Shown here: in pieces, positions 27,312-32,814 of the stretch | How positions within the stretch are numbered: the stretch's first letter is position 1 | Layout: every line of letters starts with the position of its first letter | Assembly: GCA_026417315.1 (NCBI GenBank) | Contig: JAOADM010000015.1 | Span: 1 to 32,814 of the forward strand | Length of the DNA: 32,814 nt | Direction: 5' to 3' | From: Limisphaera sp. | GTDB lineage: Bacteria; Verrucomicrobiota; Verrucomicrobiia; Limisphaerales; Limisphaeraceae | Made by a program: the position numbers and the translations under genes | Notes under the pieces: model-generated | Told to the model about the DNA's origin: nothing | The model's database searches: none | What the model saw: the letters and a program-made list of their open reading frames with translations, nothing else

Positions 27312-28471
27312 TTGGTCCACGGCCGGAACCGGAAACTTCTTCGGATGGAGCGGTGGATGTACCGTTGGGACGCGGAGAACCGGCTGGTGCGGGTGATGAG
27401 CTACGGGACGAGCGATCGGGCCAGTTGGCGTCGGGTGGACTGGGCGCACGATGCGCTGGGCCGGCGCACGAGGCAGACGAGCTACGCGCTGAGCAACGGG
27501 GTCTGGGTGGTGACGGAAGATCTCAAATTCGTGAGCGATCCGGTCTGGTTCGGCCGGCACATCGCAGAGTTGAATGCGACGAACCATGCCGTGGTGCGCA
27601 GCTACGTGTGGGGCCTGGATCTGAGCGAGACGCTGGACGGTGCCGGTGGCGTGGGCGGCTTGCTCTGGGTGCGGCTGAACAGCGGTCCCGCCTCGGAAAC
27701 GCATTTTGTGACCTACGACGGCAACGGGAACGTCTGGCGGTTGTTGTCCGCGGCCGCCGGCACCGAGAGCGGCCGTTACGAATAAGGTCCGTGTGGCGAG
27801 TCGATTCGCGCCACCGGTCTCATGGCCAAGGAGAACCCACTTCGGTCCTCGACCAAGCACACTTGTTCTACGAGTGACGTAGTGCAGTATGAATTCCGTG
27901 GTTACCCTTGCACCGTTGTCCATGGGTTAACCAAAGATCCTGTCGGCGAGGGCCGAGGGGATGTGAATCGTTACGCTTTCGTTACGCGTGTTCCGAGGAA
28001 GCATATCGATATTCTCGGCCAACATCGAGGCTGCAAGTTAGGGACAATGAGATGGAGATGTTCTGCAAATATTGCCATGGGAATCCATCGTGCATGGGAT
28101 GCTTCAGGCGTTGTCGAGAAGTGCGATGGTTGCTCTACCGCAAGCATTGAGGCCGGAGTGGAAGTGGGGGTGGGGAAAGGTTCCGGAGGCAAGTTGCCGC
28201 CACTGTCGATATACCGTGAGGTGACCCGATCGGGGTGTATTATGGAAGTGATGCGATCGTCTCGCTGGCTCAACAACAAACGCACGCAAATACGACCGTC
28301 ACGTGGTGTTCTGGTGAAATGTCTGGTGGTGGCAAGGGTTATCTGCTCGACGAGGACCGTGGGCCGAATGGTGGGATGTCAGTTGTTGGTGGTGGACCAG
28401 TCGGGCTCGGCGTCGAACTGAATGTCTCAGGTAATGCCACCGGAAGTATTGCAGCAAACGCCGAGGCGTGA
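27312..28471 (+). pseudogene. Decayed RHS-repeat protein: core end and C-terminal tail
   Basis: The reading frame starting around 27340 matches the end of an RHS/YD-repeat core (YRWDAENRLVRV, SYVWGLDLSETLDGAGGVGGL, VTYDGNGNV, then GRYE). An in-frame TAA at 27783-27785 sits where relatives have Tyr in RYEYGPFGE. The same frame then continues past it with GPCGESIRATGLMAKENPLR, STKHT, and a degraded form of the hyperconserved closing block (LTKDPVGEGRGDVNRYAFV, then IDILG near 28010). Past that point is the variable tail in AT-richer DNA. A Gly-rich frame shift-off continues at 28220-28471 in another frame, opening only after a TGA at 28217-28219. The N-terminal bulk is missing, and an upstream frame break is visible near 27335. 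RHS proteins deliver C-terminal toxins; this copy cannot make one. The core identity is sure, the tail partition less so. Confidence 0.8.
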
Positions 28472-30211: not shown

Positions 30212-30557
30212 GCCTGCAGACCACGCAGAAGTCATCGGCCAGCCGCCGTGGCGACGCGGCGGATCATGGAAGGGTCCGCCGGCTGCCGCGGGCGGCTACG
30301 GAGTGGAGTGCCCACAGAGCACGCGGAAAACGCAGATGGAAGGTGATTGACCGACTTGCGTCGGTGCCGGCCCGGCTTGGATCCGCCGACTTACGTCGGC
30401 GGCTACAGAGTTTGAGAGCCCACAGAACACGCACAGCATACAGAAGGGGATTGACAGACGAATCGACAAAGCGGGCACGAAGCGGCCTGGGTGCGGTCCC
30501 GCCGACTTGGGTCGGTGGCCACGGATCGGCCCACAGAGCATGCAGAATACGCAGAAA
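30212..30557 (+). repeat. Degenerate tandem array of about 100-116 bp composite units
   Basis: Four copies of a CCCACAGA-type motif are regularly spaced: 30212-30230 (GCCTGCAGACCACGCAGAA), 30310-30336, 30418-30446 and 30529-30557, giving steps of 98, 108 and 111 bases. Each of the last three is preceded 7-12 bases upstream by a GC-rich hairpin (30274-30299, 30381-30406, 30497-30522). Copies two and three are followed by the same GATTGAC. The first gap also has an extra hairpin (30243-30262) and the second has one at 30351-30364. The unit is thus hairpin, short spacer, CCCACAGA motif, GATTGAC. Decay differs between units, as in an old tandem duplication. Confidence 0.6.
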
Positions 30558-31285
30558 AGGATCGTGATCGGAACGAGCGGGAAGGGCTTGAAACCTTCGA
30601 GGGACGGCGGGCAGGGGGTCGCTCTTTGGTGGTCCGGCTGTGCGGGGGCCATCGGGCCCGGGCGTGGCAACCGAAGGTGGCCGCCCGCGGGAAGACGGCG
30701 GAGTTCGGAAGTCAGCCTGCGATTCCCGTCGGTAGCTATTTGGTGGCGATTCGGTGGCATCCGCCGACTTACGTCGGCGGCTACCCCATACTGGGTGCGG
30801 CGGTGGATGAACTCATGATCCGAAGGGTCCATCCGGTCATGCGCGGAGGCTTTGGTGGATGAGAGGGAATCCGTCTGGAGGTCCGGGGGCCGCTGGCTGA
30901 GGGCGGCGGCGAATCAGTTTGTTTTCGGTTCGGTAGTCCGCGGCCTGACGGCCGCGGCTACCCGAGTGCGTGATCGCGGTGGCTGCTCGGCGGGGTGGGG
31001 CCCTTTTTTGGATTTCTGGCCCGCCGCCTGACGGCGGCGGCTACCATGCGCCGAGTCTGTGGCCCGAGGAGAGCCAGGGGGAGTTTCTTTGCGGCCTGTC
31101 CGCCGCGTGCCCGCGGCGGCTATGAAACATCGGGTGCCGCGGGAGATCCACGCACGGTGGACCCAAGTGAGAGTGGTGGTTGTGGTTCAGGAAAGTTGCT
31201 TACGGCTGCCGCGTCCGCCGCCTTACGGCGGTGGCTACATGGGGCGGTGGAGATCTTTGGTCCGCCGCCTTGCGGCCGCGGCTAC
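30243..31285 (-). repeat. Field of REP-like hairpins (GTAG plus 8-bp stem)
   Basis: About eleven GC-rich hairpins lie in one kilobase, nearly all in the same orientation. Full members are at 30381-30406, 30497-30522, 30759-30784, 30936-30961, 31021-31044, 31098-31123, 31213-31238 and 31260-31285. Weaker ones are at 30243-30262, 30274-30299 and 30351-30364. On the minus strand a typical copy reads GTAG, CCGCCGAC, loop GTAA, GTCGGCGG. One copy has GTGG and one ATAG in place of GTAG. Copies at 30381 and 30759 are identical over 26 bases. Stems differ by compensatory changes: CCGCCGAC/GTCGGCGG, CCGCGGCC/GGCCGCGG, CCGCCGCC/GGCGGCGG and CCGCCGCG/CGCGGCGG. The GTAG head followed by a hairpin is the defining layout of REP elements moved by RAYT (Y1 HUH) transposases. 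No RAYT gene is in the window. Confidence 0.72.
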
Positions 31286-32340: not shown

Positions 32341-32814
32341 ATGGAAGACTGGTTGGAACAGATCGAAGCGGAGGCAGCCGTGCGGCTCCGGCTGCCGCAC
32401 GGGCGAACCGTGTCGCAGGAGCTGGAGCGTTTCCGCGCTTTTTTGCGGCGGCAATCGCAGCGGCTGCGGATGTGGCACCGTCGGGGCGGCGGCGGCCGGG
32501 AGGTCTGTCAGGGGCGCGCGACGCTTTATGACGTGTTGCTGCGGCATTTGTGGGACGCGGCCTTGCAGCAGACCGCCGGCTCGGGCCCGGCCCCGCAGCC
32601 GCCGGTCACCCTCGTGGCGGTGGGTGGGTACGGTCGGGGGGAGCTGAACCCGTACAGTGACCTGGACTTCATGTTCCTGCACGATGGCGAAGTCAGCCAG
32701 GGTGGTCAGCCCTCCTCCCTCCTGAGCCGTCTGGTGGATGGGGTGTTGTATCCGTTGTGGGACCTGGGGCTGAAGGTGGGACACACCGTGCGCACGGTGG
32801 ACGAGGCGGTCGAG
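32341..32814 (+). CDS. glnD: [Protein-PII] uridylyltransferase GlnD (3' partial)
   Basis: The frame opens at ATG 32341 with MEDWLEQIEAEAA and runs off the window after 158 codons. After an N-terminal helical region it shows the nucleotidyltransferase signature VAVGGYGRGELNPYSDLDF: G95, G96 and the metal-binding D107 and D109 are in place. FLHDG and a helix with LYPLWDLGLKVGH follow, both standard for GlnD. The full enzyme (around 850-950 residues in the family) also has a second HD domain and two ACT domains, not visible here. It adds UMP to PII proteins when nitrogen is low and removes it when glutamine is high. No stop codon is seen inside the window, so the partial status is due to the window edge. 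Confidence 0.93.
   Translation, partial: MEDWLEQIEAEAAVRLRLPHGRTVSQELERFRAFLRRQSQRLRMWHRRGGGGREVCQGRATLYDVLLRHLWDAALQQTAGSGPAPQPPVTLVAVGGYGRGELNPYSDLDFMFLHDGEVSQGGQPSSLLSRLVDGVLYPLWDLGLKVGHTVRTVDEAVE

Follow-up and report, generated by a model that had tools for sequence, protein, structure and literature searches.

The 32,814-nucleotide stretch analysed here, referred to as the window (Limisphaera sp., Verrucomicrobiota; contig JAOADM010000015.1 of assembly GCA_026417315.1), carries towards its right-hand end a dense array of repetitive extragenic palindromes (REPs), short hairpins with a GTAG foot. Within 30276-31285 we identified nine full copies, all on the minus strand, each composed of GTAG, an 8-bp stem, a four-base loop and the returning 8-bp stem, followed in most cases by an A. 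The head is GTAG in seven of the nine (GTGG at 30499, ATAG at 31100), the loop is GNNA in eight (CCAA at 30499), and the copies are irregularly spaced, at 47-262 bp. An earlier note, made from the sequence alone, had described about eleven hairpins per kilobase with 8-bp stems, four-base loops of GNNA form on the minus strand and mostly GTAG starts on that strand; this anatomy holds, and its count is explained by the nine full copies plus three decayed or inverted relatives. A loose 24-mer pattern matched the window 22 times against 5.4 expected, a number reached by none of 100 window shuffles. The element hairpin can be written as GTAGCCGCCG, with a stem of the CCGCCG type, and the members of the array are as follows.

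30276..30299, minus strand: REP copy 1, GTAG CCGCCCGC(GGCA)GCCGGCGG A
30383..30406, minus strand: REP copy 2, GTAG CCGCCGAC(GTAA)GTCGGCGG A
30499..30522, minus strand: REP copy 3, degenerate, GTGG CCACCGAC(CCAA)GTCGGCGG G
30761..30784, minus strand: REP copy 4, GTAG CCGCCGAC(GTAA)GTCGGCGG A
30938..30961, minus strand: REP copy 5, GTAG CCGCGGCC(GTCA)GGCCGCGG A
31021..31044, minus strand: REP copy 6, GTAG CCGCCGCC(GTCA)GGCGGCGG G
31100..31123, minus strand: REP copy 7, ATAG CCGCCGCG(GGCA)CGCGGCGG A
31215..31238, minus strand: REP copy 8, GTAG CCACCGCC(GTAA)GGCGGCGG A
31262..31285, minus strand: REP copy 9, GTAG CCGCGGCC(GCAA)GGCGGCGG A
30239..30262, plus strand: degenerate inverted hairpin, CCAG CCGCCGTG..CGCGGCGG, the sole opposite-orientation copy of the array
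30350..30365, minus strand: decayed hairpin without a GTAG head, ACCGAC(GCAA)GTCGGT, read directly from the sequence
30890..30913, minus strand: decayed REP-like sequence, TTCG CCGCCGCC(CTCA)GCCAGCGG

The stems vary between copies while keeping their pairing. Across the nine window copies 94.4% of stem cells are paired, against 83.2% after shuffling (0 of 500 shuffles as high) and 22-53% when the register is slid, and three stem pairs show changes on both sides. To avoid selecting for pairing, we then took every GTAGCC-N-GGA sequence by its ends only. A spacing of 16 (GTAGCC-N16-GGA) yielded 190 copies, every other spacing from 10 to 22 between 1 and 9, and across the 88 different sequences among them the six inner stem pairs were complementary in 92% of cases versus 75% after shuffling (shuffle maximum 78%), with A-T, C-G, G-C and T-A alternatives all occurring at the inner positions. 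The compensatory changes that had been described from the window are thus present, beyond chance, both there and in this pairing-blind set, and compensatory stem variants are a mark of GTAG REPs. Sequence outside GTAG...A is not conserved in the flanks, so the unit is a 25-mer. No T-tract was found on either side of the hairpins, the Rfam search returned no match for them, and ARAGORN found no tRNA. With regard to the mostly extragenic placement expected of GTAG REPs, none of the tested frames in the array region gave a Pfam domain.

The element is abundant in its own genome. A covariance model (R1) built from the nine window copies, a search that the earlier note had proposed, gave at least 149 matches, so further copies exist, and the pattern GTAGCC-N6-GNNA-N6-GGA found 178, with none in a reversed-pattern control; the suggestion of a REP-type family in a Verrucomicrobiota-type genome is thereby upheld. 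A strict scan of 40 fetched hit-holding stretches together with the window (376 kb in total) detected 257 copies compared with 10-16 in Markov controls, a density that is not a genome average because the stretches were chosen for holding hits. Among these 257, the head is exactly GTAG in 199, the loop is GNNA in 217 and the 3' A is present in 224. Clusters reach 18 copies in both orientations, and 43 copies are no more than 500 bp away from a contig end where 20 were expected, twice the expectation, so that the assembly does break at REP loci. With GTAG (or GTGG) placed 5' of a stem of at least 7 bp that closes a loop of 2-5 nt, and with many genomic copies, the array belongs by its anatomy to the GTAG-type REP family.

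Beyond this genome, the exact 24-mer core occurs in 53 stretches of about 21 other genomes, which by title are Verrucomicrobiota, Lentisphaerae, Kiritimatiellae or similar, the exceptions being one Bryobacteraceae-labelled bin and one 'uncultured bacterium'. The general pattern is present at 41-247 copies in about ten other genomes (controls 0-4), and a congener (G001) shows no excess of it (2 versus 4 in the control) and no R1 match. From these counts, the REP family is spread over the phylum yet expanded in single lineages. As a separate observation, the Lentisphaerae genome GWF2_57_35 (G063, the genome of locus L076) holds a near-clonal REP population, GTAGCCGCGTCCGTAAGGACGTGGA, as dispersed single copies, unlike the genome of the window, where the copies are diverse and clustered.

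The all-direct orientation described earlier holds for the window array and fails genome-wide, where plus and minus copies are mixed and neighbours within clusters share an orientation in 80 of 194 cases, fewer than the 97 expected on average at random (P 0.008). A nine-copy same-orientation run somewhere in the clusters has P ~0.07, which is not significant; the direct-only layout is therefore a local matter of the window, and the view that direct-only arrays characterize the element is not supported. Two processes contribute to the direct layout here, namely composite units with a second repeat and segmental duplication, and their traces in the window are these:

30310..30337, minus strand: second repeat module between REP copies 2 and 1
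30418..30445, minus strand: second repeat module between REP copies 3 and 2
30529..30556, minus strand: second repeat module on the GTAG-head side of REP copy 3
30495..31128, plus strand: stretch with REP copies 3-7, duplicated in the same genome at C328:1899-2761 (82-87% identity, two pieces)

The second repeat, which the earlier note did not mention between the first window copies, is a 28-nt, 10-bp-periodic sequence, TTCTGCGTGTTCTGTGTGNTCTGTGGGC, lying between REP copies as a module TCTGCGT..TCTGTGGGC. Hairpin and second repeat together form head-to-tail units of 70-90 bp on three contigs (C70, C105, C138), and a longer form of the composite unit, within which the decayed hairpin at 30350..30365 is also visible, occurs among the first window copies. 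Of the intervals between neighbouring copies, the repeat occupies 26 of the 79 head-tail, 11 of the 55 tail-tail and 2 of the 58 head-head ones, and in 25 of the 26 head-tail cases it lies on the strand of the hairpins. Searched for by pattern over the whole genome, it occurs 34 times, exclusively on contigs that carry GTAG arrays (among them C45, C70, C101, C105, C138 and C367), and the same search found none in seven other genomes. We considered that the repeat might be part of GxxExxY genes and rejected this, since the genome contains none. For the window array, duplication can be seen to have multiplied copies locally: between the paralogous stretches the copy 5 hairpin differs by a compensatory change, CCGCGGCC..GGCCGCGG versus CCACGGCC..GGCCGTGG (plus strand) in C328. 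On C37 the tandem units are larger, with several hairpins each.

The relatives provide candidates for the enzyme side of the system. Y1 genes are common among them (48 of 58), and a structure-only scan of their Y1 loci revealed flanking hairpins with other stems; R1 itself, run against the first 30 loci, gave two weak flanking matches only. Requiring a stem of at least 8 bp and a GTAG or ATAG head, 13 of 80 Y1 loci have hairpins on both sides with GTAG ends outward, whereas of the control positions taken from related DNA only 2 in 686 do (the loci are L041, L142, L143, L144, L146, L147, L149, L150, L163, L166, L172, L175 and L204). In these relatives, then, inverted GTAG-type hairpins border a Y1 gene, the arrangement called a REPtron; L147, for example, carries GTAG-CCCACGGC(GCGA)GCCGTGGG-AA plus an inverted partner, and in genome G062 a hairpin beside the Y1 gene, GTAGCCGGTGGC(GCAA)GCCACCGG, recurs dispersed through the genome. 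Those of the bordered proteins that were aligned are about 148-150 aa long with DH(V/I)H and WQ motifs, and 12 of the 13 have a Y---Q--HH signature, the thirteenth frame being interrupted. They pass the IS200/IS605 model NF033573 (71-88 bits, cut-off 55) and stay below the REP-associated tyrosine transposase (RAYT) model NF047646 (at most 28 bits, cut-off 80), and the proteins of solved structure closest to them in sequence are IS200/IS605 transposases. Judged by these signatures rather than by a tree, they appear to match TnpAY1 subclass 1.2. The expectation of a RAYT gene flanked by the same hairpin is therefore borne out in part: relatives carry Y1 genes bordered by inverted GTAG hairpins of like architecture, but the exact stem was not seen at the loci examined and the proteins score below the RAYT cut-off. 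Seven Y1 loci (L046, L050, L144, L145, L146, L163, L166) show a second flanking hairpin class, with ATAG heads, stems starting CCC and two-base loops, which is possibly a separate REP class.

We consider it about 85% probable that the array is a GTAG REP cluster, most likely seeded by a Y1 enzyme working in trans and then enlarged by tandem and segmental duplication. The REPs would be non-autonomous 25-nt hairpins (GTAG, an 8-bp GC-rich stem, a GNNA loop and an A) on which a Y1 transposase (HUH type) like those bordering GTAG hairpins in related Verrucomicrobiota most likely acted, presumably recognising GTAG and loop; conservation of head and loop beyond the stem fits recognition by a protein. 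Mobilisation in trans is something we infer from this comparison. The later local duplications would in part have involved composite units with the second short repeat, and the cognate enzyme may have been lost or may lie within the unassembled 13% of the genome.

Several results weigh against this account. Neither PF01797, which would detect Y1 and RAYT genes, nor a profile built from 20 Y1 proteins of Verrucomicrobiota found such a gene in the window's own assembly, extending to the whole assembly the earlier remark that no RAYT gene lies nearby. Neither the repeat nor the relatives' Y1 type is present in the congener, whose single Y1 protein is of another type (YIRLNP). No CCGCCG-stem hairpin was seen at a Y1 gene among the relatives' loci examined; a search of 320 genomes of the order for a DNA pattern that combines a CCG-stem hairpin with the Y1 C-terminus had no match, though its strict codon pattern makes this weak evidence; and the enrichment of CT cleavage sites adjoining GTAG is weak and carries no conclusion. 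The absence of a Y1 gene is not proven, because the assembly is 86.7% complete and the hairpins are enriched near contig ends. A cognate RAYT/TnpAREP gene in the same genome is usual for GTAG REPs without being required, and REP genomes that have lost their transposase gene are on record (PMC6006769, PMC3733652).

Such a loss defines the alternative that survives best, which is a variant of the preferred explanation (the same element with no living enzyme), so that our confidence in the two overlaps. The copies would be relics whose number changes by duplication and slippage only, and template-switch (quasipalindrome) correction rather than selection would keep the pairing. The lack of a Y1 gene in the assembly, the segmental duplicate of the array, the tandem multi-hairpin segments of C37 and the compensatory change between paralogues all speak for it; the assembly, however, is 87% complete and breaks at arrays, and head, loop ends and 3' A are conserved like the stem, which template switching within the stem leaves unexplained. 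We regard it as possible, if somewhat doubtful. Far less probable is that the hairpins are kept as functional RNA or DNA sites (mRNA stabilisation, termination or protein binding) rather than as mobile repeats. Secondary roles of this sort are held by many known REPs (PMC3733652, PMC6006769), but T-tracts and an Rfam match are missing, the congener has no copies, and single regulatory sites would hardly account for clusters that run to 18 copies and include both orientations. A row of same-orientation direct repeats also bears a likeness to integron attC or CRISPR-like arrays, a reading that can be set aside almost entirely, since the spacing is irregular, recognisable cassette genes are absent between the copies, 24-nt hairpins are too short for attC, and copies are dispersed genome-wide in both orientations. 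Spacing, copy distribution and the lack of T-tracts were the grounds for rejecting the integron, CRISPR and terminator candidates.

GTAG REPs were previously known from Opitutus terrae of the same phylum (PMC3733652), and the window element is therefore a new family of a known kind. It resembles the GTAG REPs of Di Nocera et al. 2013 (PMC3733652) in its 5' GTAG foot, a stem within their 6-9 bp, compensatory variants and a short loop, and in occurring as singletons, dimers and large clusters whose flanking DNA is reiterated in tandem. It departs from them in that a sizeable minority of neighbours are head-tail here. For the Stenotrophomonas TnpAREP, whose substrate is a palindrome of 8 bp closed by a 3-nt loop, GTAG and loop sequence matter (PMC8266576). 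The REPs of that system (group 3) likewise combine GTAG with a perfect 8-bp palindrome and a short loop with a sequence requirement, whereas the present element has a four-base GNNA loop, belongs to another phylum and came with no cognate enzyme here. On the enzyme side, the relatives' Y1 proteins share with TnpAY1 subclass 1.2 (Corneloup et al. 2018, PMC6006769) the DH(V/I)H, WQ and Y---Q--HH signatures and the length of about 148-150 aa. Table 1 of that paper lists the subclass without REPs, mostly from Cyanobacteria and Bacteroidetes; the relatives' proteins differ in their Verrucomicrobiota hosts and in the paired (G/A)TAG hairpins at 13 loci.

A broader proposition, to which we give even odds, is that Verrucomicrobiota GTAG REPs are served by IS200-like Y1 enzymes of subclass 1.2, and that in the window's genome the REPs joined a second repeat in composite head-to-tail units; in the limited literature searched, we found no description of the partner repeat or of an association with this subclass. 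If true, the partnership between REPs and transposases would be wider than thought or of more than one origin. Y1 proteins whose apparent subclass has been catalogued as lacking REPs, yet which have REP-type hairpins beside them in relatives across the phylum, would supply new enzyme-hairpin pairs for in vitro study, and a large lineage-specific expansion beside a congener without any copy offers a young system for studying REP spread.

As for the neighbourhood of the array, no conclusion rests on the output of the dicodon gene finder (trained on long ORFs), which was unreliable in this GC-rich DNA. Between about 28421 and the start of a glnD-like gene at 32341 the tested frames gave no Pfam domain, and to the left of the array an RHS-repeat-like frame spans 27357-27785, with a score just under the Pfam cut-off.
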